Shown here: positions 5,464 to 62,829 of the stretch, one piece after another
Position numbering within the stretch: the first letter of the stretch is position 1
Layout of the letters: each line of letters opens with the position of its first letter
NCBI GenBank assembly: GCA_000169395.1
Contig: AAXZ01000005.1
Coordinates: 62,001-126,000, forward strand
Source: Rhodobacteraceae bacterium HTCC2150
GTDB lineage: Bacteria > Pseudomonadota > Alphaproteobacteria > Rhodobacterales > Rhodobacteraceae
DNA length: 64,000 bases
Direction: 5' to 3'
Notes under the pieces: model-generated
What the model saw: the letters and a program-made list of their open reading frames with translations, nothing else
Told to the model about the DNA's origin: nothing
Databases searched by the model: none
Made by a program: the position numbers and the translations under genes

Positions 5464-5516
5464 GTTGCGCAAAAAACGGATCGACAACAGATCAAATCAA
5501 AAGCTAAATCGCAGGC

Positions 5517-6434
5517 ATGACACAAAACCAAACATTAAGCAGCCGCGCGTGGGGCGAACTATTATTGCTGGCGTTGATCTGGGGCGGATCGTTCCTGGCC
5601 ATGCGCATTACGTTGAACGAAGTTGGCGTTTTCACAACTGTGGCGCATCGTATCTTTTGGGCGGCGTTTATCTTGTGGGGCGTTGTTTTATATCGCGGTA
5701 TTTCTATTCCTGGCAGTGGTAAAATTTGGGGCGCATTCTTTGTTATGGGTGCGTTAAATAACGCCATTCCATTTGCCCTTTTTGCTTGGGGTCAGCTTTA
5801 TATCGAAACGGGGTTAACCTCAATTTTGAACGGCGCAACTGCACCCTTTGGTATTCTTTTGGCGGCTTTGTTTTTCAAAGACGAGCCAATTACCCTACGC
5901 CGCGGCATTGGTGTAGTCTTAGGTTTTTTGGGTATGGCCATTACGCTTGGGTTAGAGAACCTGCAAGAATTTAACATCAAGTCATTGGCGCAATTAGCCA
6001 TTTTGGGCGCGACGTTTTCGTATGCATTGGCTGGCTCATGGGCACGGGCCCAACTAGGGCATTTACCCTCGCAATTATCGGCAGCAGGTATGGTGACAGC
6101 GGCCACACTAATCATGGTGCCTTTGGCCTGGTACTTTGAAGGACCATTTGACTTGACCCTTATGCCAAGCACTTGGATGGCCATCTTTTACATGACCGTA
6201 TTTGCAACGGCGCTTGCCTACCTGCTGTATTACCGCGTGCTTAGCATGGCCGGCAGTGGAAATTTGATGCTTTGCACCCTGCTCATCCCACCTGTTGCTG
6301 TTATCCTAGGATCGCTTGTTTTAGGTGAAGCATTGCATTTTCGCGCATTCATCGGCTTTGGCGTCCTTGCGCTTGGCATGTTCATTCTAGATGGACGTTT
6401 GGAACAATACTTGCGACGACGGTTTTCTGTTTGA
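5517..6434 (+). CDS. EamA/DMT-superfamily transporter
   Basis: A second, separate EamA exporter of 305 residues with about ten membrane segments. Landmarks are WGELLLLALIWGGSFLAMR at the start, TVAHRIFWAAFILWGV, the AxxFGILLAALFFKDEP pattern closing the first repeat, and LIPPVAVILGSLVLGE closing the second. It ends in a basic tail (YLRRRFSV). It shares only family-level features with the transporter at 3297, so the two are not a recent duplication. The start ATG 5517 has little Shine-Dalgarno signal. The substrate is unknown. It begins 53 bases after the preceding terminator and so should have its own promoter. Confidence 0.88.
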   Translation: MTQNQTLSSRAWGELLLLALIWGGSFLAMRITLNEVGVFTTVAHRIFWAAFILWGVVLYRGISIPGSGKIWGAFFVMGALNNAIPFALFAWGQLYIETGLTSILNGATAPFGILLAALFFKDEPITLRRGIGVVLGFLGMAITLGLENLQEFNIKSLAQLAILGATFSYALAGSWARAQLGHLPSQLSAAGMVTAATLIMVPLAWYFEGPFDLTLMPSTWMAIFYMTVFATALAYLLYYRVLSMAGSGNLMLCTLLIPPVAVILGSLVLGEALHFRAFIGFGVLALGMFILDGRLEQYLRRRFSV

Positions 6435-6483
6435 TCGAAACGGGCTTTGGCGTTACCTAAGATAAAAAACCAAAGGGCGCGTC

Positions 6484-7350
6484 ATGTTTTATAATTCTGC
6501 TGATGAGTGGCACAACGCCCGTGAAAAACGTGTGTTGATATTTGGCATGTCAGGCTTGGGAAAAACCCATGTCGCCAATATGTTGCGCGATACTGGCGAG
6601 TGGTATCATTACAGCATCGATTACCGTATCGGCACCCGTTATATGGGTGAACATATCTTAGACAACATCAAACGCGAGGCCATGAAAGAACCCTTCATAG
6701 CTAATCTTTTGCGTACGGATTCAATCTATATCGGGTCAAATATCTCGTTTAACAATCTTGCCCCGCTTTCTACTTATTTGGGTAAACCAGGGGATCCTGC
6801 CAAAGGCGGCGTGCCGTTTGACGAATATATGCGGCGCCAAGCATTGCATCGAGAGGCAGAAATAGCGTCACTTTTGGACAGCCGATATTTCATTGATCGC
6901 GCTCAGGCAATTTATGGTTATCCGCATTTCATCTGCGATACCGGCGGCTCGATTTGTGAAGTGGTTGAACCAAACAATCCGGATGACCCTGTTCTTAGTT
7001 CCCTGTCACAAGACAACTTGTTGGTTTGGATCAAGGGGGACGATAGTCACATAGATCGCCTTGCTGCACGTTTTGATCGTGCACCAAAGCCAATGTATTA
7101 TTCACCCGCGTTTCTAACGGAAAAATGGTCACAATATCTGTCACTTAACGGTGTGGCTGAAGATAAAGTTGATCCAGACGATTTCGTGCGTTGGACATAT
7201 CGTCAAGCAATGAAACATCGTGAGCCGATCTATGCCGCAATGGCTGAAAAATGGGGGGTTACAGTTATGGCAGATGATGTTGCCAATGTGTCAAATGCCA
7301 CTGATTTTGACAGGCTCATTGCTGATGCCCTTGGAAAACAAGCAAACTAA
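6484..7350 (+). CDS. P-loop ATPase/kinase-like protein, unknown role
   Basis: A 288-residue soluble protein with a P-loop near its start: VLIFGMSGLGKTHVA (Walker A GMSGLGKT, about residues 20-27), with a hydrophobic-acidic strand HFICDTGGSICE at about 155-165 that could be the Walker B region. The C-terminal half has YYSPAFLTEKWSQYL and FVRWTYRQAM. It looks like a P-loop kinase or ATPase of the type annotated simply as 'ATPase' in many Rhodobacterales. Substrate and partners are unknown. It lies 34 bases upstream of the homoserine acetyltransferase gene in the same direction, so co-transcription is likely. Confidence 0.65.
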   Translation: MFYNSADEWHNAREKRVLIFGMSGLGKTHVANMLRDTGEWYHYSIDYRIGTRYMGEHILDNIKREAMKEPFIANLLRTDSIYIGSNISFNNLAPLSTYLGKPGDPAKGGVPFDEYMRRQALHREAEIASLLDSRYFIDRAQAIYGYPHFICDTGGSICEVVEPNNPDDPVLSSLSQDNLLVWIKGDDSHIDRLAARFDRAPKPMYYSPAFLTEKWSQYLSLNGVAEDKVDPDDFVRWTYRQAMKHREPIYAAMAEKWGVTVMADDVANVSNATDFDRLIADALGKQAN

Positions 7351-7383
7351 GCTTACGTAAATAGCCCCACTAGGAACGATATC

Positions 7384-8301
7384 ATGCCGATAAAATTACC
7401 CTCTGACTTGCCTGCCTTCCGAGTATTGGAAGAAGAAGGCGTGATGGTGATTTCACGTCGCAAAGCCGCACGTCAAGACATTCGCCCCCTAAAAATTGGC
7501 CTGTTGAATTTAATGCCCAAGAAAATTCAAACAGAAACCCAATTTGCACGCCTCATTGGGGCCACGCCTTTGCAGATTGATCTGACCCTAATTCGCATGT
7601 CAGAACATCAAACCCGCAATACGTCAGCGGCACACATGGAAACGTTCTACAAACCTTTTCAAGAGGTTAAGGATGAGAAATTTGATGGGTTAATCATCAC
7701 CGGCGCCCCAATTGAACACTTGGAATTCAGCGATGTGACCTATTGGAACGAGCTGATTGAGGTGATGAATTGGACGCAGACCAATGTGCATTCCACATTT
7801 GGCGTTTGCTGGGGTGGCATGGCCATGATCAACTATTTTCACGGTGTTAAGAAACATATGCTGGATGCCAAGGCATTTGGGTGTTTTCGTCATGAAAACC
7901 TTGAAAAGGCCTCGCCTTTCTTACGTGGTTTTTCCGATGAATGCGTGATCCCCGTTAGCCGCTGGACGGAAATGAAACAGGATGAAATCGATCAGGCAAA
8001 TGGGTTGAAAACTTTGCTTGGCTCACCTGAAACAGGCCCTGCCTTGGTTGAAGATAAGGACCATCGTGCGCTTTATATATTTAACCACTTTGAATATGAT
8101 GATGGCACGCTGAAACAAGAATATGATCGCGACGTTGAAGCGGGCACGCCAATAAATGTGCCGTGTCATTATTATCCCAATGATGATCCCAACCGCGCGC
8201 CCCTTAATCGTTGGCGCAGCCACGCGCATTTGCTTTATGGAAACTGGTTGAACCAAATTTACCAATCCACCCCTTACGATATGGCTGAAATTGGCAACTA
8301 G
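7384..8301 (+). CDS. metAA: homoserine O-acetyltransferase (MetA family)
   Basis: A 305-residue full-length MetA enzyme that acylates homoserine in the first committed step of methionine synthesis. The catalytic residues sit at canonical positions: Cys142 in FGVCWGG, His235 and Glu237 in NHFEYD. Position 111 is Glu (GAPIEHLEF). Work on MetA showed that Glu at 111 gives acetyl-CoA specificity while Gly gives succinyl-CoA, so this should be an acetyltransferase despite resemblance to E. coli succinyltransferase. ATG 7384 has AGGAAC upstream. The 33-base gap to the upstream gene leaves no room for a SAM riboswitch. It connects functionally to the methyl-transfer module at 51-56 kb. Confidence 0.9.
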
Positions 8302-8358
8302 GCGCTATGCGGCCCACAGAATTCGCGGTAGGCTGGCAATAATAAATCGGAGCCCACA

Positions 8359-9228
8359 ATGACCCTTCCTTTTGACGGCAAAATCAGTGCTTATTACAAA
8401 AATGATGCGCCGCAAGATGTGCGTGACGCCATTGCGACGGCCAAAAAGAAGCATGTTCTAAATCCCAAATACCCTTTTGCAAAAGTAATGAACAAACAGG
8501 ACTACGAGGCGGAAATGGCCGCTTTGCAGATTGAATTGGTCAAAATGCAGGCTTGGGTTAAAGAAACTGGCGCCCGTGTAGCAGTGGTTTTTGAAGGGCG
8601 CGATGCGGCTGGCAAAGGCGGCACAATCAAGCGGATCACCCAACACCTTAGTTCGCGAATTGCGCGGATCGTGGCCCTGACCAAACCCACCGAACGCGAA
8701 CAGGGCGAATGGTATTTCCAACGTTATATCAAAGAATTACCTGCACGCGAAGAAATGTCATTGTTTGATCGCAGTTGGTATAATCGTGGTGTTGTGGAAC
8801 ATGTGTTTGAATTCTGTACCCCCGATCAACGAGAGGTTTTCTTTGGTCAATTGGCGGATTATGAAAATCTGTTGATTAATGACGGTATCTATCTGACTAA
8901 GATTTGGTTGAATGTCGGACGTGCGGAACAGTTGAACCGTTTCTTGGAACGCGAAAAAGATCCGCTAAAGCAATGGAAACTAAGCTGGATTGACGTTGAA
9001 GGTCTAAACCGTTGGGATGCTTATTCTGACGCCATCAAGGAAACTTTAACCCGCAGCCACAGTGAAAATGCACCATGGACCGTTGTGCGATCAGACGACA
9101 AGCGACGTGCAAGGATTGCTGCTATCAAAACCGTTCTATCACGGCTTCCTTATACGGGTCGCGATGATGCCTTCGTCAATGACATCGACGGCCAAATTTG
9201 CGGCGGGCCAGATATCTGGGATGTCTAA
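8359..9228 (+). CDS. ppk2: polyphosphate kinase 2
   Basis: A 289-residue PPK2 that reversibly transfers phosphate between polyphosphate and nucleoside diphosphates. It has the Walker [16 protein letters not shown] (about residues 77-91), the lid region [16 protein letters not shown], and the Walker B with following Arg pair, [15 protein letters not shown] (about 132-146), in the order of the family. Length fits a one-domain class I enzyme. ATG 8359 has GGAG seven bases upstream. Its last 8 bases overlap the TetR gene, so the two are translationally coupled. Confidence 0.92.
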
Positions 9229-9841
9229 ACGCGGCTATCACCATGGAAATTTACGTCAGGCTTTGGTCGATGCGGCGTTGATTTTGATCGAACAGAAGGG
9301 GCCAACTGGTTTCACCTTGGCCGAGGCGGCAAAAACCGCTGGGGTTACGCCCGCTGCCGTGTACCGTCATTTCGGTGGCCGCGAAGAATTAATCGCGGAA
9401 GGCGCGCAACAAGGGTACGACATTTTCGCGGACCTTATGGAATACGCTTATCGTGATGGGAAACCCTCAGCCTTGGCCGCATTTGAGGCAACAGGTCGTG
9501 CCTATCTTGCCTTTGCACGCAAATATCCAGGCCATTATCAGGCAATGTTTGAAAGTGGCCTTTCATTAAATGCATATCCCGATCTTAATTTGGCCGCCAC
9601 CCGTGCCCAAGGCGTGCTTACCCGCGCCGCAGATTCCCTCTCACAACATATTCCTGCCGACAAACGTCCGCCATCTGCGATGTTTTCCGCCCATATTTGG
9701 GCGCTAAGTCACGGTGTTGTCGAATTATTTGCCCGAGGCAATCCTGGGGCCAAGGGACAGTTTCCACCCGAGGAACTCCTTGAAAGTGGTATTGGGATCT
9801 ATTTGCGCGGCCTAGGACTTATTCCGCCGGACGATCACTAA
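9221..9841 (+). CDS. TetR/AcrR-family transcriptional regulator
   Basis: A 206-residue regulator with an N-terminal [28 protein letters not shown]-type start, then [26 protein letters not shown] (about residues 32-57) as the recognition helix region. The C-terminal ligand domain resembles the WHG class ([31 protein letters not shown]). The ATG at 9221 overlaps the end of ppk2; the longer upstream frame lies inside ppk2 and is disregarded. Coupling to ppk2 suggests that it may control ppk2 or itself, but no operator was identified. It ends convergently with lpxB, overlapping that gene's end by 23 bases. Confidence 0.87.
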
Positions 9842-11003
9842 GATCACGCAAAATTGCCTTTGCAGCCCGCAGACCAGGGGCCTCACCACCCTGCCCTAAT
9901 GCAGCCATTGTATCGCTCATCGCATCACGTTGGCGCATTTGCACTTGATCCGAGTTCATCAGCGATGTGACACCTTTTGTGATTTTATCTGGCGTGCAAT
10001 TTTCCAACAAAAATTCTGGCACATGGCGAGTGTCACTGATCAAGTTTACCAAAGTTACTGTATCTTGACGGTAAAGACGGCGCATGATGATCCGCGAAAG
10101 AGGCGCAAGATCATAGGCAACCACCATTGGCGTGTTTGCAGCCGCCAATTCTAATGAAACGGTGCCAGAAGCCGCCAACGCAAAATCAGCCTGCGCATAT
10201 ATTGCCCGTTTCTGCGCCTCGGCTGTCTCAACCGACATGCCACTGGGATCAAAGAGTAAACAGCCTGCAGGCCAGCTTTCCATTTGTTGCGTTAATTCAT
10301 TTGCCACAGATCGCGCCGCGGCAACTGTGATTTGCAAATCCGGATGCACCGCCTTGATCTTATGAATTGCCGCCCCAAAAATTGGCGCCAAACGTTTAAT
10401 TTCAGACTTACGTGACCCCGGTAGAACGACCAGTGTTTTCCTCTTCTCATCAATAACAGCAGGCAGATCAGCGGGGTTTGCCGCCACTTCAGCCACAATT
10501 GGATGCCCTACAAAATCACATTGAATGCTGCTGTCCGCCCAGTATTTTGGTTCAAACGGGAAAAGCGCCAGCATTTGGTCGATCACGCCTTGCAGTTTGG
10601 CAACGCGCCCTGGGCGCCATGCCCAAACAGTAGGGGCCACATAATGAACCGTGCGAATGTCGCTTGCCGCTTTCACTTGTTTAGCCACACGAAATGAAAA
10701 ATCCGGGCTATCAATTGTGATCAAGGCATCGGGTGACAATTCAATCACCGCCTCAGCGGTTTGTTTTATACGACGTTTTAGGGCGAAGTATTTAGGCAGA
10801 ATTTCAGCCAGCCCCATAACGCTAAGCTCATCCATTGGGAAAATGCTATTCAGGCCTGCCGCTTGCATTTCAACACCGCCAACGCCATGAAAAACAACGT
10901 CTGGAACCAGTTCGCGCAGCCCCTTCATCAATGCGGCACCTAATCGATCGCCCGAAGGTTCACCCGCCACAAGAAAGAACACAGGCGCATTCACATCCTT
11001 CAT
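9819..11003 (-). CDS. lpxB: lipid-A-disaccharide synthase
   Basis: A 394-residue GT19 glycosyltransferase that joins UDP-2,3-diacylglucosamine to lipid X, making the lipid A disaccharide at the inner membrane. N-terminal FFLVAGEPSGDRLGAALM (about residues 9-26) is the family signature. YVAPTVWAWRPGR, LPGSRKSEI and ALAASGTVSLELA are the expected nucleotide-sugar-binding motifs. It is last in the minus-strand lpx run; its start overlaps the lpxI stop by 4 bases. Confidence 0.95.
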   Translation of the reverse strand: MKDVNAPVFFLVAGEPSGDRLGAALMKGLRELVPDVVFHGVGGVEMQAAGLNSIFPMDELSVMGLAEILPKYFALKRRIKQTAEAVIELSPDALITIDSPDFSFRVAKQVKAASDIRTVHYVAPTVWAWRPGRVAKLQGVIDQMLALFPFEPKYWADSSIQCDFVGHPIVAEVAANPADLPAVIDEKRKTLVVLPGSRKSEIKRLAPIFGAAIHKIKAVHPDLQITVAAARSVANELTQQMESWPAGCLLFDPSGMSVETAEAQKRAIYAQADFALAASGTVSLELAAANTPMVVAYDLAPLSRIIMRRLYRQDTVTLVNLISDTRHVPEFLLENCTPDKITKGVTSLMNSDQVQMRQRDAMSDTMAALGQGGEAPGLRAAKAILRDLSDRPAE

Positions 11004-42041: not shown

Positions 42042-44807
42042 TTATTCTGCGGCCTCGGTCACCGGATCAGCCGCCCTTGCTCGACAGGCCGAAAACTTAA
42101 ACTCTGGGATTTTGCCAAATGGATCAAGTTTTGGGTTGGTCAGGATATTGGCCGCCGCCTCGACATAAGCAAAGGGCAAGAAAACCATATCCTCGGCCAC
42201 CGCGCGATCAACGCGCGCCATGATGTTGATCTTGCCGCGACGGGTTTCAAGCGTGATCATTTCACCCGCTTTCACGCCCATTGCCCGCAATGTTTTGGGA
42301 TGCAGCGAAGCGTTCGCCTCGGGTTCGGCCCAATCCAAAACAGTGGCACGGCGGGTCATGGACCCAGTGTGCCAATGTTCCAACTGACGACCCGTGGTTA
42401 GGATCATTGGGAAATCAGCATCTGGCACCTCGGCGGGGGCCGTAACATTGGCCGGTGTGAAGCGTGCGCGACCAGATGGACGCGGGAATTTATCCCCAAA
42501 TACAATCGGTTGACCTGGATCATCCGGTGTCAGCGATGGGTAGGTCACAGCCGTTGTTTCCAAGCGATCCCATGTGATGTTGTCCAAGGAACCCATGTTC
42601 AACTTCATCTCAGCAAACACTTCTTTGGGGTGCGTATAGTTCCAATCCAGACCTAAGTGATTGGCCAACTGAACGGTAATCCACCAATCCTCACGCGCAT
42701 CACCGGGTGGTGAAACAGCTGGACGGCCCATTTGAACCTGACGATTGGTGTTTGTCACAGTGCCAGTTTTTTCCGGCCATGCAGATGACGGGAAAATAAC
42801 ATCGGCGTAGTTGGCCGTTTCGGTCAAGAAGATGTCCTGAACGACCAAGCAATCCAACTTTGCCAAGGCATCGCGGGCGTGTTCAACATCTGGATCAGAC
42901 ATCGCTGGGTTTTCACCCAAAATATACATGCCCTTGATTTTGTCGTCATGGATCGCGTCCATAATTTCTACAACGGTCAGGCCTTTTTGGCTGGAAAAAT
43001 CATCCGTTCCCCACACATCAGTGAAAGCAGAGCGCACACCATCATCCTCAACCGATTGATAATCGGGCAAGAACATCGGAATAAGACCGGCATCAGATGC
43101 ACCCTGTACGTTGTTTTGACCACGCAAAGGATGCAAGCCAGCACCAGGGCGACCCGTTTGGCCTGTCATAAGGGCCAGCGAAATCAAACAACGTGAATTG
43201 TCTGTGCCGTGAATATGCTGGGAAATACCCATGCCCCAGAAAATCATCGCCGCATCAGCATTGGCGTAAGTGCGTGCAACTTGGCGAATTTCCTCGGGTG
43301 AAATACCGCATAGTGGCGACATCGCCTCGGGTGTGAAATCGGCCAAATGCGCCTTCATTTCATCCCAGTTTTCGGTCATCGTATCGATGTAGTTTTGATC
43401 ATACAGCTTTTCCTCGACAATCACGTTCATGATTGCGTTAAGCAAGGCAACATCAGTGCCCGGACGGAATTGCAGCATATGTTCAGCGTGGCGTTTCATT
43501 GCTGTGCCGCGTGGATCAATGATGATCAACTTGCCGCCGCGTTTGGCGAATTGTTTGAAATAGGTCGCGGCTACAGGGTGGTTTTCTGAAGGGTTACACC
43601 CAATCACAATGGCCACATCCGCGTTTTCAATTTCATTAAACGTAGCCGTCACAGCCCCCGAGCCGACGTTTTCTAACAAGGCAGAAACTGATGACGCATG
43701 ACAAAGCCGCGTACAGTGATCGACGTTGTTGTGTTTAAACGCCTCGCGGATCAGTTTTTGGAACAGATACGCTTCCTCGTTGGAACATTTGGCCGAACCA
43801 AAGCCCGCGATTTCACGACCGCGACCTTTCATACCACGACCTGCAAATTCAAACGCTTCTTCCCAGCTTGCTTCGCGGAAATGCGTCGACAGATTACCCG
43901 GATCAACGTTCAACCCCTTGGCTGGCGCATCATCACGACGGATCAGCGGCTTGGTTAGACGGTGCGGATGCGCGATGTAATCAAAGCCAAAACGACCCTT
44001 CACACACAGGCGGTTTTCATTGGCTGGACCTTCGATACCTTCGACCCAAGCAATCTTTTCATCCTTGATTTTAAAGGACAATTGGCAACCAACACCACAA
44101 TAAGGGCAAACGCTTTCGACCTCGCGATCAAAGGCTTTGCTGTCACCAACAAGGGCCTCATCCACCACTGTGGCGGGCATCAACGCACCAGTTGGGCAGG
44201 CCTGAACGCATTCACCACAAGCCACACAGCTTGAGGCACCCATGGGATCGTCAAAATCAAAGGTGATCTTGGCATCTGCACCACGACCGGACAGGCCGAT
44301 AACATCATTTACTTGCACGTCGCGACAGGCGCGCACACACAGGTTACATTGAATACAGGCATCCAAATTCACTGACATCGCCAGATGAGACGCGTCCAAC
44401 AAGGGCACGCGGGTTTCCTCAAGTTTGGGAAAACGGCTGTCTGACACGTCTTGCATATCGGCCATATCCCACAGATGGGATGATTTATCATGGGCCGCAT
44501 CGCGGTCAGGCTGATCCGTCACCAGCAATTCCATGACCATCTTGCGGGCCTTTTCGGCGCGCGCGCTGTCGGTTTTAACAACCATACCATCGGCAGCAGG
44601 ACGAATGCAGGATGCCACCAACGTACGCTCGCCCTCGACCTCGACCATACAAGCGCGACAATTGCCATCGGGCACATAGGCGGTAGCGTCTTTGTGACAA
44701 AGATGCGGGATTTTCAGCCCACGGCCATTTGCAGCCTCCCAAACGGTCAAGCCACGCTCTACGGTTACGTCTTCGCCATTCAAGTTGAATGTTACGGTAT
44801 CAGTCAT
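42042..44807 (-). CDS. fdsA: NAD-dependent formate dehydrogenase alpha subunit
   Basis: A 921-residue molybdopterin-guanine-dinucleotide enzyme oxidising formate to CO2. N-terminal ferredoxin-like [2Fe-2S] domain with HLCHKDATAYVPDGNCRACMVEV; then His-Cys and two [4Fe-4S] clusters (CIQCNLCVRACRDVQ and CVACGECVQACPTGAL); then an Mo-bis-MGD core with VCPYCGVGCQLSF (4Fe-4S) and the active-site CTRLCHASSV. The Mo ligand is Cys, not selenocysteine. The C-terminus (about 780-921) is the molybdopterin-dinucleotide-binding domain. It starts 4 bases after the fdsGB stop. Cytosolic complex; delivers electrons to NAD through FdsGB. Confidence 0.95.
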   Translation of the reverse strand: MTDTVTFNLNGEDVTVERGLTVWEAANGRGLKIPHLCHKDATAYVPDGNCRACMVEVEGERTLVASCIRPAADGMVVKTDSARAEKARKMVMELLVTDQPDRDAAHDKSSHLWDMADMQDVSDSRFPKLEETRVPLLDASHLAMSVNLDACIQCNLCVRACRDVQVNDVIGLSGRGADAKITFDFDDPMGASSCVACGECVQACPTGALMPATVVDEALVGDSKAFDREVESVCPYCGVGCQLSFKIKDEKIAWVEGIEGPANENRLCVKGRFGFDYIAHPHRLTKPLIRRDDAPAKGLNVDPGNLSTHFREASWEEAFEFAGRGMKGRGREIAGFGSAKCSNEEAYLFQKLIREAFKHNNVDHCTRLCHASSVSALLENVGSGAVTATFNEIENADVAIVIGCNPSENHPVAATYFKQFAKRGGKLIIIDPRGTAMKRHAEHMLQFRPGTDVALLNAIMNVIVEEKLYDQNYIDTMTENWDEMKAHLADFTPEAMSPLCGISPEEIRQVARTYANADAAMIFWGMGISQHIHGTDNSRCLISLALMTGQTGRPGAGLHPLRGQNNVQGASDAGLIPMFLPDYQSVEDDGVRSAFTDVWGTDDFSSQKGLTVVEIMDAIHDDKIKGMYILGENPAMSDPDVEHARDALAKLDCLVVQDIFLTETANYADVIFPSSAWPEKTGTVTNTNRQVQMGRPAVSPPGDAREDWWITVQLANHLGLDWNYTHPKEVFAEMKLNMGSLDNITWDRLETTAVTYPSLTPDDPGQPIVFGDKFPRPSGRARFTPANVTAPAEVPDADFPMILTTGRQLEHWHTGSMTRRATVLDWAEPEANASLHPKTLRAMGVKAGEMITLETRRGKINIMARVDRAVAEDMVFLPFAYVEAAANILTNPKLDPFGKIPEFKFSACRARAADPVTEAAE

Positions 44808-57868: not shown

Positions 57869-59476
57869 TTAAGATCTTGATATAAATTTCAAAAGTGATT
57901 GCGTTGATCCATCTTTGTGATCTGCGCTTTCTTTGCCTTGAACCATTGGCTCTAGCGCTGTGGCCAGTTCTTTGCCCAGCTCAACACCCCACTGATCAAA
58001 CGAATTGATGCCCATAATGACACCCTCTACAAAAACGCGATGTTCATAAAGTGCAATGATTTGCCCCAAAACAAACGGCGTCAAGCTTGGGTAAACCAAG
58101 GTCGTAGATGGGCGATTTCCAGTGAACACGCGGTGGCGCGCTTGGCGTTCTAGTTCATCACCTGACAACCCCTTTTGGGCCATCAAACCACGCGCCGTTT
58201 CAAGATCACGACCCAGCATCAATGCCTCGGATTGCGCCAGGCAATTTGCCACCAACAGATCGTGATGATGGGCAAGCTCGGCCTCTTGCCCCTTTGCACC
58301 AATCATAAATTCACATGGAATGACCTGACGGCCTTGATGGATCAATTGATAAAAGGCGTGCTGCCCATTGGTGCCAGGCTCGCCCCACACAATCGGGCCT
58401 GCTGGCATCGGTAAATCATCGCCAGACATGGCAACACCTTTACCGTTAGATTCCATTTCCAATTGTTGAAAATATGCTGCCAGACGGCCCAATCGTTGCT
58501 CATACGGCAATACGGCTCGTGTTGGATACCCGCATACTTGATGATGCCAAATACCCACCAAAGCTAGCAATACAGGCATATTTTCCGCAAGATTGGCCTG
58601 TGTAAAGTGTTTATCCATCGCCTCACCACCTGCCAAGAACGAACGGAAATCTTCCGCACCTACAGACAGCATGATAGAAAGTCCGATTGGCCCCCAAAGT
58701 GAGTATCGACCACCAACCCAATCTTCAAAACCGAACACGCGTTCAGCAGAAATACCAAATTCACTGGTTTTTTCAGCCGAAGTTGAAAGTGCCGCAAACT
58801 GTGCGCCAGTATTCGCGACCGATTTCGCCATCCAATCGCGGGCGGTTGTGGCATTGGTCATCGTTTCAATCGTCGTAAATGTTTTTGATGCCACAATGAC
58901 CATCGTGGTAGTCGGATCAAGCCCTGCTAACGTGTCGGCAACGTCGGCGCCATCAACGTTTGATACAAAGTGAACGCGTGGCCCATCAGCAAACGCGGTC
59001 AACGCACGTACGGCCATGGCTGGCCCCAAATCTGACCCGCCGATGCCGATATTAACGACATCAGTAATGGCACCGCCCTGCCCCATAAATGCACCGCTTC
59101 GTACATCCTCGGCAAAACTTTCCATCCGCGCCAATGTAGCAAGAACATCAGGCATCACATCCTGACCATCAACCAAAACTGGCGTGCCGTTTACATTGCG
59201 CAAAGCCGTGTGCAACACAGCACGGCCCTCGGTTTCATTTATTGCGTCACCTTGAAACATGGCGTCGCGTTTGGCGACAAGATTAGCGCCTTTGGCAAGC
59301 GAAAGTAACGTATTTAGAGCGGTTGAATCGATATTGGTCTTGGAGAAATCGAACAACATCCCGTCGGTTTTGACCGAATATTCGGCGGCTCGCTTGTCAT
59401 TTTCGAACAATTCAGAGATTTTTCGCGCTTGAACATTAGATTGGTGATCTGACAGTTCATCCCAAATATTTTGCAT
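57869..59476 (-). CDS. pgi: glucose-6-phosphate isomerase
   Basis: A 535-residue PGI linking glucose- and fructose-6-phosphate. It has [59 protein letters not shown], the sugar-binding MESNGKGV, and the C-terminal [15 protein letters not shown] with its conserved Gln and Lys. Last gene of the zwf-pgl-pgi operon, 33 bases after pgl. Confidence 0.95.
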
Positions 59477-59509: not shown

Positions 59510-60181
59510 CTAAACAGCCCAATGGACCGACGCATTTTCCAACACAGCTTTGATGGGTGCATCAATCTCGTTTAATTTCATCGCAGCCTCAAGTGCCGTG
59601 CGTTTTTCTTCGCCCATGATAAGTACATGGATGTGTTTAGCCGCCTTTAACACGGGCGCAGTTAACGTAATCCGAGGCTCACCCGCGCCCGCGGCGCGCA
59701 TGGGTAACAATGTTGGCGCATCATCGGCGAGTGATTTCTCCAAAAGATCAGCACCTGGGAACAATGACGCGGTATGCATGTCGCCCCCCATTCCCAAAAC
59801 CAGTACATCCAGCGGCAAGACCGCTTCTACCCCAACAGACAAGGCAGCAAGCCCTTCTTCTGGTGTTTCAGCATCCGCATAAAGTGGAATTAATTGCGCA
59901 ACAGCCGCCTTGTTTTGTATCAAACGTGCCCGCAACAATGCGGTGTTTGAACGAGGTGACGTTTCAGGCACCCAACGTTCGTCATTCAGCAAGATCGCAA
60001 CTTTGGACCATTCAAGATCGGACTGGTTCAATCGATCAAACATAGGCCCGGGCGTGGTTCCACCTGGAACCGAGAGGCTTGCTGCCCCGTTTTTTTCAAT
60101 TGCATAGCCAAGCTCAGCCGTAACAATGTCAGACAAACTGGCGATTAACGTTTCGCGGTTTGGATACGTAATAAACTTCAT
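59510..60181 (-). CDS. pgl: 6-phosphogluconolactonase
   Basis: A 223-residue DevB/SOL-type lactonase that hydrolyses 6-phosphogluconolactone to 6-phosphogluconate. It shows SLSVPGGTTPGPMFDRL, LLNDERWVPETSPRSN and LGMGGDMHTASLFPGA, the expected sugar-phosphate-binding segments. The start overlaps the zwf stop by 4 bases, so expression is coupled. Second gene in the zwf operon. Confidence 0.95.
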   Translation of the reverse strand: MKFITYPNRETLIASLSDIVTAELGYAIEKNGAASLSVPGGTTPGPMFDRLNQSDLEWSKVAILLNDERWVPETSPRSNTALLRARLIQNKAAVAQLIPLYADAETPEEGLAALSVGVEAVLPLDVLVLGMGGDMHTASLFPGADLLEKSLADDAPTLLPMRAAGAGEPRITLTAPVLKAAKHIHVLIMGEEKRTALEAAMKLNEIDAPIKAVLENASVHWAV

Positions 60182-61638
60182 AGTTCTTCAATCTCGCGCC
60201 AGCGACGGCCATCTTTGTGCATAAGCATCATTGCATCTTCGGGCCCCGCGCTTCCCTGGTCATAGGCAATTGGTTTTTGACTCCGCTCGGCCCACCCTTT
60301 GATTATCGGATCAGTCCATTTCCAAGCCGCTTCAACCTCATCACCGCGCATAAACAGGGTTTGGTTGCCACGGATCACATCCATAATTAGGCGCTCATAG
60401 GCATCAGGCACATCCGCCGCCTTTTCTTCGCCAAACGCATCAGCAAACGTCATATCAAGCGGCACATCTATCAAACGCATGCCGCCAGGGCCCGGTTCTT
60501 TGATGGTCACACTTAAGTCCATACCTTCGTCAGGTTGCAGACGAATGGTTAATACATTGGCCTTCGAACCCGCATCATCATCAAAGATTGAATGCGGAAT
60601 GTCCTTAAAGGTCACAACGATTTCGCTCATCCGCGCCTTCATACGTTTACCAGTTCGCAAATAGAAAGGGGTGCCTTTCCAGCGCCAATTGGCAATGCCG
60701 ACTTTCATAGCAACAAAACACTCAGTCTTGCTGTTTTCATCGTCGACTTCTTCCAAGAACGAGGGGCCTTCAACACCTTTACGGTACTGACCACGGACAA
60801 TATCGTCATCCTCTACTGGATCCAACGATCTGATTACTTTCAATTTTTCATCCCGAACAGCGTCAGGATCAAAATGGCTGGGGGGTTCCATCGCCGTCAG
60901 ACACAAAAGTTGCATCAGGTGGTTTTGCACCATGTCCCGCATAGCACCAGACTTATTATAATAGGCCCCGCGCCCCCCAATCCCGACGGTTTCTGCCGCT
61001 GTGATTTGCACATGATCCACATACTGCGCATTCCACAGAGGTTCAAAGAGCACGTTAGCAAACCGAAGCGCCATTAAGTTTTGAACAGTTTCTTTACCTA
61101 AATAGTGATCAATGCGGTAAATCTGACTTTCGTCAAAGTGTTCTGCCAAATCGCGGTTCAGCGTGCGTGCTGTTTCCAAATCACGACCAAAAGGTTTTTC
61201 CACAACGACGCGACTTTCAGCGTTTGCAATATTGTGACTGTGCAGACGCGAAGCCAGTTCGCCAAACAAGCTTGGGCCAACAGAAAAGTAAAACGCTTGA
61301 ACAACATCAGGACGCACTAACTTGGCAAGTTCTTTCCACCCATTTTCGCCCATAGCGTCAACGGTGACGTAATGAAACATCTTCAGAAACTCTGCTATTT
61401 GTTTCTTGTCTCGCTTATTTTCTGCCACGAATTCATCAAATGCGTCAGAAACAAACTTGCGAAAACTTTTGTCCGAAAAATCGCCTCGGGCAGCACCGAT
61501 AATTCGGCTGCCTTCGGCTATTTGTCCAGCCTGATAGCGGCGAAACAAACCCGGTAAGATTTTACGTCGGGCCAAATCACCCGTACCGCCAAAAATGACC
61601 AAATCAAAAGGGGAAACTGGGATTATACGGGATACCAT
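60178..61638 (-). CDS. zwf: glucose-6-phosphate dehydrogenase
   Basis: A 486-residue G6PDH, the entry to the Entner-Doudoroff and pentose-phosphate routes. DLVIFGGTGDLARRKILPGLF holds the NADP-binding GxxGDLA motif; RIDHYLGKETVQNLMALRFAN is the substrate and catalytic segment; and the C-terminal half has the FADAFGEEKAADVPDAYERLIMDVIRGNQTLFMRGDEVEAAW region. It is first in a zwf-pgl-pgi operon. A LacI-type operator lies 34 bases before its ATG. Confidence 0.96.
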   Translation of the reverse strand: MVSRIIPVSPFDLVIFGGTGDLARRKILPGLFRRYQAGQIAEGSRIIGAARGDFSDKSFRKFVSDAFDEFVAENKRDKKQIAEFLKMFHYVTVDAMGENGWKELAKLVRPDVVQAFYFSVGPSLFGELASRLHSHNIANAESRVVVEKPFGRDLETARTLNRDLAEHFDESQIYRIDHYLGKETVQNLMALRFANVLFEPLWNAQYVDHVQITAAETVGIGGRGAYYNKSGAMRDMVQNHLMQLLCLTAMEPPSHFDPDAVRDEKLKVIRSLDPVEDDDIVRGQYRKGVEGPSFLEEVDDENSKTECFVAMKVGIANWRWKGTPFYLRTGKRMKARMSEIVVTFKDIPHSIFDDDAGSKANVLTIRLQPDEGMDLSVTIKEPGPGGMRLIDVPLDMTFADAFGEEKAADVPDAYERLIMDVIRGNQTLFMRGDEVEAAWKWTDPIIKGWAERSQKPIAYDQGSAGPEDAMMLMHKDGRRWREIEEL

Positions 61639-61671
61639 TACGGCCTCTTTTCACTTCTTTGCCAACAAAAT

Positions 61672-61683
61672 GTTAGCGCTAAC
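61672..61683. promoter_or_regulatory. LacI-type operator upstream of zwf
   Basis: GTTAGCGCTAAC is a perfect 12-base palindrome with the central CG typical of LacI-family operators. It lies 34-45 bases upstream of the zwf start, where it would block or overlap the promoter. In Rhodobacter, CceR (a LacI-family regulator responsive to 6-phosphogluconate) represses the Entner-Doudoroff genes; the similar site between maeB and sucC fits its role in TCA control. No LacI gene is in this window. Confidence 0.7.
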
Positions 61684-61839
61684 CTATCTATTGATTGAAA
61701 CATGCACAACCAATAATTCACTGTCTAGCACGACACTATAAAACCACAACAGTCATCACAAAACTGTCAGCCGTGCGCCTTTATGCTTTCTTTTGGGTAA
61801 AGGGCCTCATAGGCATTATTCAAGCAAAAGGGTACGGGC

Positions 61840-62829
61840 ATGAAAGATCTGGAAACGTCAGCCACTGATCAAGCTGACAACAATGATGCGTCGAACGCGA
61901 ATATCGGCAAGTTTGTTGATCCGAAAATCACCGCCAAAGGTGATACACGGGCAACTGTTGCCCTTAGCAATCCGCAAACGCTTTGGTTTAATACCGGCAC
62001 ACTTTGCAATATCGAGTGTGAAAATTGTTATATCCTAAGCTCGCCCAAGAACGACGCCCTTGTGTACATCACCGCAGATGAGGTTTCAGATTACCTAACG
62101 CAGCTTAAGGATCAAAATTGGGGTGTGCGTGAGATTGCCTTTACGGGTGGTGAGCCTTTCATGAACCCCGAGATGATTGAAATCACTCGACGCTCGCTTG
62201 CGGCTGGATATGAGGTATTGATCCTCACAAACGCCATGCGCCCGATGATGCGCAAATCCATGCAAGCGGGTCTATTGGAATTGAACGCGGCCTATCCTGG
62301 CAAGCTTACCATGCGCATTTCTGTGGATCACTATGATGCCGACAATCACGACAAAGAACGCGGCCAAGGCAGCTTTGAAACCACCATCAAAGGGATGAGC
62401 TGGCTGCGTGACAACGGCATTGCCATGGCAACTGCTGGTCGCACGGTTTGGGGTGAAAACGATGCGCAATCCCGTCAGGGATATGCAGATCTATTTGAAA
62501 GAAACAACTTTAATATCGATGCGCAAAACCCTGGAATGACAGTTTTATTTCCGGAAATGGATGAGAACATCGAGGTGCCTGAAATCACAACAGATTGCTG
62601 GGGCATTCTGAATAAATCCCCCAATGACATTATGTGTTCTTCATCCCGTATGGTGGTGAAGCGCAAAGGTGCCGACAAACCCGCTGTTCTTGCGTGCACC
62701 CTTTTGGCCTATGCGCCCAAATTTGAGCTCGGTGAAACTTTGGCCGAGGCCGAACGCGACGTTGCCCTGAACCACCCCCATTGCGCCAAATTCTGCGTTC
62801 TTGGGGGCGCCAGTTGTTCGCGTAATTGA
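61840..62829 (+). CDS. radical SAM protein with C-terminal Cys cluster
   Basis: A 329-residue radical SAM enzyme. The SAM-cluster motif CNIECENC is at residues 56-63 (CxxxCxxC), followed by a GGEPF motif (AFTGGEPFMNPE, about 105-116). The C-terminal 80 residues hold six further Cys: TDCWGIL, IMCSSS, VLACTLL, HCAKFC and GASCSRN, suggesting an auxiliary [4Fe-4S] cluster as in SPASM or twitch domains. The first 40 residues are a disordered Asn/Asp-rich extension. Substrate is unknown. It lies beside, and convergent with, an agmatinase family gene; I believe this pairing recurs in related genomes. ATG 61840 follows AAAAGGGTACGGGC. Confidence 0.82.
   Translation: MKDLETSATDQADNNDASNANIGKFVDPKITAKGDTRATVALSNPQTLWFNTGTLCNIECENCYILSSPKNDALVYITADEVSDYLTQLKDQNWGVREIAFTGGEPFMNPEMIEITRRSLAAGYEVLILTNAMRPMMRKSMQAGLLELNAAYPGKLTMRISVDHYDADNHDKERGQGSFETTIKGMSWLRDNGIAMATAGRTVWGENDAQSRQGYADLFERNNFNIDAQNPGMTVLFPEMDENIEVPEITTDCWGILNKSPNDIMCSSSRMVVKRKGADKPAVLACTLLAYAPKFELGETLAEAERDVALNHPHCAKFCVLGGASCSRN

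Follow-up and report, generated by a model that had tools for sequence, protein, structure and literature searches.

In Rhodobacteraceae, a GapR regulon was predicted in 2014, consisting of a LacI-family regulator and a 20-bp palindrome, with zwf-pgl-pgi, edd-eda, gapA, gapB, fba and pckA listed as targets (Ravcheev et al., 2014, PMC4052901). Roseobacter was described there as carrying two gapR copies, one of which is divergent from gapB (PMC4052901). For the CceR regulator of R. sphaeroides (RSP_1663), the motif [A/G/T]GTT-N6-8-AAC[A/C/T] was reported, together with targets that include zwf-pgl-pgi, pckA, malic enzyme and FbaB (Imam et al., PLoS Comput Biol 2015, PMC4344238). The effector of CceR is 6-phosphogluconate (PMC4419725). 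In P. denitrificans lacking CceR, Zwf, Pgi, Pgl, Edd and Eda go up and PckA, MaeB and Fba go down (PMC11323563). No report on CceR in Roseobacter, or on CceR paralogues in Rhodobacteraceae, was found in the open-licence literature.

Rhodobacteraceae bacterium HTCC2150 has features in common with these systems. A LacI-family regulator and the palindrome are shared with the GapR regulon, and the motif and the targets zwf-pgl-pgi, pckA, malic enzyme and FbaB are shared with R. sphaeroides CceR. In contrast to the GapR regulon, HTCC2150 holds a sister-type copy of the regulator only, P0001, which lies away from gapB and seemingly runs the whole set; unlike R. sphaeroides CceR, P0001 falls outside the canonical CceR clade and shares on average 54% identity with its members. 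It is probable that this bacterium uses a CceR-type regulon that is run by the sister regulator P0001 through the palindrome before zwf, with canonical CceR absent. What the site itself adds is one more bacterium with a known regulon; the less ordinary part is the regulator.

The palindrome before zwf

The window analyzed here is a stretch of 64 kb (64,000 nucleotides). The perfect 12-letter palindrome GTTAGCGCTAAC occupies positions 61672-61683, exactly where the original prediction had placed it, 33 nt upstream of the ATG of zwf; it is assigned to neither strand. The zwf gene (60178-61638, minus strand), encoding glucose-6-phosphate dehydrogenase of 486 aa (TIGR00871, 564.8 bits, cut-off 400.6), is the first gene of zwf-pgl-pgi. 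It is followed on the same strand by pgl (59510-60181), encoding 6-phosphogluconolactonase (TIGR01198, 158.8 bits, cut-off 124.45), and by pgi (57869-59476), encoding glucose-6-phosphate isomerase (NF001211, 747.4 bits, cut-off 492); all three gene names were taken from NCBIfam models. The claim that the palindrome lies in the zwf promoter is unsupported, since no sigma-70-like promoter was found at 61600-61900. As no promoter could be placed, the geometry proposed below for repression rests on the distance between site and start codon. The site coincides with no RNA element above the Rfam gathering score.

A divergent radical SAM gene (61840-62829) shares the intergenic region, its start codon lying 156 nt from the palindrome, and the site might in principle serve this gene and not zwf. 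This is highly improbable, as zwf itself is only 33 nt away and the site is conserved before zwf in the family, in a comparison that covered the zwf side of the site in relatives.

Counts within the window say little. Two matches with up to two mismatches are present, and at least two were obtained in 43 of 100 shuffles; there is no enrichment, which is what a chance match without function would give. The 3.58 Mb genome, by contrast, holds four exact copies of the word where an order-3 Markov model, trained on 256 kb of the same genome, predicts 0.08 (Poisson P ~2e-6), and three of these copies stand 21-33 nt before genes of central carbon metabolism, namely zwf, edd-eda and gapA, all Entner-Doudoroff (ED) or glycolytic genes. 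Together with the conservation of the site in relatives described below, these genome-wide counts rule out chance for practical purposes.

The fourth exact copy, at C18:30006-30017, is not found before a central carbon gene. A tRNA-Arg (CCT) gene follows 138 nt downstream, and a glycerate 2-kinase-like gene on the same strand ends 110 nt before it; no target accounts for this copy. Places with one mismatch number eight in the genome, barely above the 4.4 expected, and such sites therefore count by their position and not by their number. The reversed word, used as a control, yielded 38 places with up to one mismatch, compared with 12 for the real word; the reversed word is simply commoner in this genome, with about 27 places expected. 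Several one-mismatch places are not claimed as targets: C19:16204 and C25:46243 fall inside reading frames, C25:196909 precedes an uncharacterized reading frame, and an acetyl-CoA acetyltransferase gene starts 130 nt after C24:766306. The two-mismatch place C25:791379 is likewise inside a reading frame. When the genes flanking the 12 places with up to one mismatch were examined, neither fbp nor gltA, both named in the original prediction, was encountered.

Further sites and their conservation

The motif GTT-N6-8-AAC that defines the CceR/GapR regulon is found in HTCC2150 as a palindrome before zwf-pgl-pgi, and the same palindrome recurs before much of the described target set. It is exact before edd of edd-eda, 21 nt from the start codon, and before gapA, 32 nt from the start codon. 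With one mismatch, it is present before pckA (119 nt), before maeB and twice before gapB (99 and 129 nt); with two mismatches, it lies 70 nt before fbaB, the gene with a broken frame. The assignment of the zwf site as a LacI-type operator of this regulon is borne out by these copies and near-copies, and so is the expectation that the palindrome would also stand upstream of edd-eda and, as a near-copy, of pckA. As predicted, the zwf site very probably functions as an operator of the known regulon. In itself it is ordinary: zwf-pgl-pgi was already among the targets named when the regulon was predicted in 2014, and the site represents a further instance of what has been described.

Some of these sites deserve separate comment. 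In the gapB promoter (L014, 7952-7993), the two operator copies are separated by exactly 30 bp (about three turns of the helix), which suggests cooperative binding. The class I fructose-bisphosphate aldolase gene fbaB (L259, ~1583-2511; C24, near 115500) has a reading frame broken near its start, reflecting either decay or an assembly error, two causes that look the same here. The second operator-like site of the window, GTTTGCGCTAAC on the minus strand (36848-36859, one mismatch), is 99 nt from the start of maeB and 141 nt from that of sucC, upstream of both genes. It was absent from the original prediction, and malic enzyme is a known CceR target. The maeB gene (34472-36748, minus strand, GTG start) is assigned to an NADP-dependent malic enzyme of 758 aa with 970.7 bits to NF009501, below the cut-off of 1178, and the site lies at an activator-like distance from it. 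The divergent sucC (37001-38194, plus strand), encoding the succinate-CoA ligase beta subunit (NF001913, 554.1 bits, cut-off 370), may share the site with maeB.

Of the 58 family genomes that contain zwf, two lacked the gene start and were dropped; in the other 56, the 300 bases upstream of zwf were scanned for the site. It was recovered with up to one mismatch in 35 of the 56 genomes and exactly in 25. Among 100 palindromes made by shuffling its letters, none matched more than one genome with up to one mismatch, and none matched any genome exactly. Similarly, the edd site is present in 25 of 30 genomes with up to one mismatch (60 shuffled palindromes: at most 0 of 30), and the pckA site, mostly as GGTTGCGCTAAC, in 29 of 30 with up to two mismatches (60 shuffled palindromes: at most 2 of 30). 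Median distances from site to start codon are 37 for zwf, 46 for edd and 138 for pckA, so that near and far classes separate. By analogy with Paracoccus CceR, a site close to the start codon fits repression and a distant one activation. The proteins that rise and fall in the P. denitrificans deletion match the near and far sites of HTCC2150; CceR of that species was probed by gene deletion, whereas the HTCC2150 regulator is known from sequence alone.

The regulator P0001

The original prediction had called for a CceR homologue elsewhere in the genome, and one was found. P0001, encoded at C20:84378-85379, is a LacI-family protein (PF00356) and the only close CceR homologue among six LacI-domain proteins in a genome that is 99.92% complete. 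Across the family, a homologue of at least 50% identity is present in 48 of 61 genomes, HTCC2150 included, and none was detected at E 1e-70 in 16 genomes of other families in the same class. The zwf site tracks this type of regulator: it is present in 34 of 46 genomes with the regulator and in one of 10 without it (Fisher P 3e-4). The remaining 12 of the 46 have no zwf site within one mismatch, and the sole genome with a site and no regulator (G019) is a fragmented assembly of 91% completeness.

With six LacI-domain proteins available, one of which (P0003) also scores to GntR models, the zwf palindrome could be the operator of a different LacI-family regulator dedicated to a sugar pathway. This is very unlikely, though to a lesser degree than the radical SAM alternative. 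P0001 possesses the SEMTxSR recognition helix of canonical CceR, but the other five proteins have different recognition helices without this motif and are unlikely binders of the palindrome; moreover, the palindrome recurs family-wide before ED and gluconeogenic genes and follows the P0001 family.

With P0001 as the most likely regulator in HTCC2150, the following circuit can be proposed, with binding, the effector and the sign of regulation of each gene all inferred. When sugars are not in use, the CceR/GapR-type, LacI/GntR-like master regulator would repress zwf-pgl-pgi through the palindrome, and would likewise repress edd-eda and gapA, whose sites lie 21-33 nt ahead of the start codons. 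By analogy, the same regulator may activate the gluconeogenic genes pckA, gapB and maeB from sites 99-129 nt upstream; the support for such a dual role comes from the site distances. When sugar enters the cell, the regulator would be released from its operators by 6-phosphogluconate, which Zwf and Pgl produce.

The surroundings of the P0001 gene are different from those of its closest relatives discussed below. It is flanked by putA and an ACT-domain gene and is not divergent from gap or zwf with an operator between, the arrangement that marks the sister clade. No operator of the searched form lies beside the gene, for which reason autoregulation of P0001 was rejected; contig C20 has one such place, at 42434, directly behind putA on the same strand.

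Position of P0001 relative to canonical CceR

The regulator stands apart from its homologues in a manner that is not seen for PckA or Zwf. Mean identity of the HTCC2150 protein to the others is 54.4%, against 78.2% for the others among themselves; the corresponding values are 79.1% and 80.8% for PckA and 70.2% and 73.7% for Zwf. A regulator tree of 51 rows was computed with a careful search and replaced a first tree that contained very distant rows and whose careful search was unfinished. In this tree, P0001 groups with eight gap/zwf/edd-linked homologues (support 97/92), outside the canonical clade of 27 rows (100/99) that contains the Paracoccus protein and the presumed R. sphaeroides protein. 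In the presumed R. sphaeroides genome (G051), the regulator lies about 14 kb from pckA.

Two readings of P0001 have to be weighed here. Under the first, canonical CceR was lost and its operator set is now run by a sister regulator, with the wiring kept. We lean towards such a swap. Under the second, P0001 is the genuine CceR orthologue, changed by rapid evolution in this lineage, and no swap took place, the regulon being the same. The latter gains from the status of P0001 as the only close homologue in a nearly complete genome, from the length of its branch, and from its retention of 124 of the 159 columns that are nearly invariant in canonical CceR, including the recognition-helix contacts. 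On the other hand, the sister-clade grouping persists with support of 96/92 when the long-branched nearest relatives of P0001 are removed, and AU tests in which P0001 was forced together with canonical CceR gave p = 0.019, or 0.029 after that removal; the placement concerns one protein on a long branch, with AU values of 0.02-0.03. At 16 clade-diagnostic columns, P0001 follows the sister clade at 14 and the canonical clade at one, some of these states being possibly ancestral. Four genomes, moreover, hold both types side by side, which also argues against one orthologue that merely diverged. The fast orthologue is therefore rather unlikely, though far from negligible. As to the original prediction of the same control as by Rhodobacter CceR, the operators agree with it, but the regulator does so only in part: by tree, identity and diagnostic residues, P0001 is not the orthologue of Rhodobacter CceR and belongs to the sister clade.

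The eight other members of the sister clade are each encoded divergently from gap-zwf-edd, gap or zwf in named marine relatives: gap, zwf and edd are near the regulator in L112, L113, L114, L146 and L158, gap in L115 and L116, and zwf and edd in L125. The genomes of L113, L115, L116 and L125 are the four with both regulator types. In L112, L114, L146 and L158, an exact palindrome is located 77-83 nt before the regulator start, and the same four genomes carry an exact palindrome 88-92 nt before pckA and have no canonical copy. In these four loci (~5500-11000), which derive from HTCC2255, two Amylibacter MAGs and one Rhodobacteraceae bin, gap, zwf and edd form a compact cluster, and its own CceR-like regulator is transcribed away from it, the exact palindrome lying in the region that separates them.

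A quick PckA tree was used as a single-gene stand-in for the species tree, one gene being a weak species marker. In it, seven genomes with only the sister type or the related Amylibacter type are split by a branch of support 100 from HTCC2150 and the canonical genomes. The nearest relatives of the regulator are thus not the nearest by PckA, which fits either the swap or an unequal loss of copies. Searches of the family and of relatives returned no other genome of the genus of HTCC2150.

Under the favoured swap, the operators at six or more transcription units have been retained, and the protein acting on them seems to be another member of the family. If true, this would be a natural case of a global regulator exchanged without rewiring of its targets, and it would raise the question whether the sensing of 6-phosphogluconate moved with the regulator. 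Annotation by nearest homologue would name P0001 CceR and miss its sister-clade identity.

Two further observations concern the wider family of these regulators. A further paralogue clade, represented by L280-L283 (genomes G005, G007, G039 and G013), is 44-50% identical to P0001 and carries an SKMTASR helix; these genomes also hold canonical CceR. In addition, the structure PDB 3kjx, which bears only the name "LacI family regulator" and is assigned to Silicibacter pomeroyi in a reference list, scores 543 bits against the presumed R. sphaeroides CceR and 365 against P0001, and is probably an unrecognized canonical CceR.
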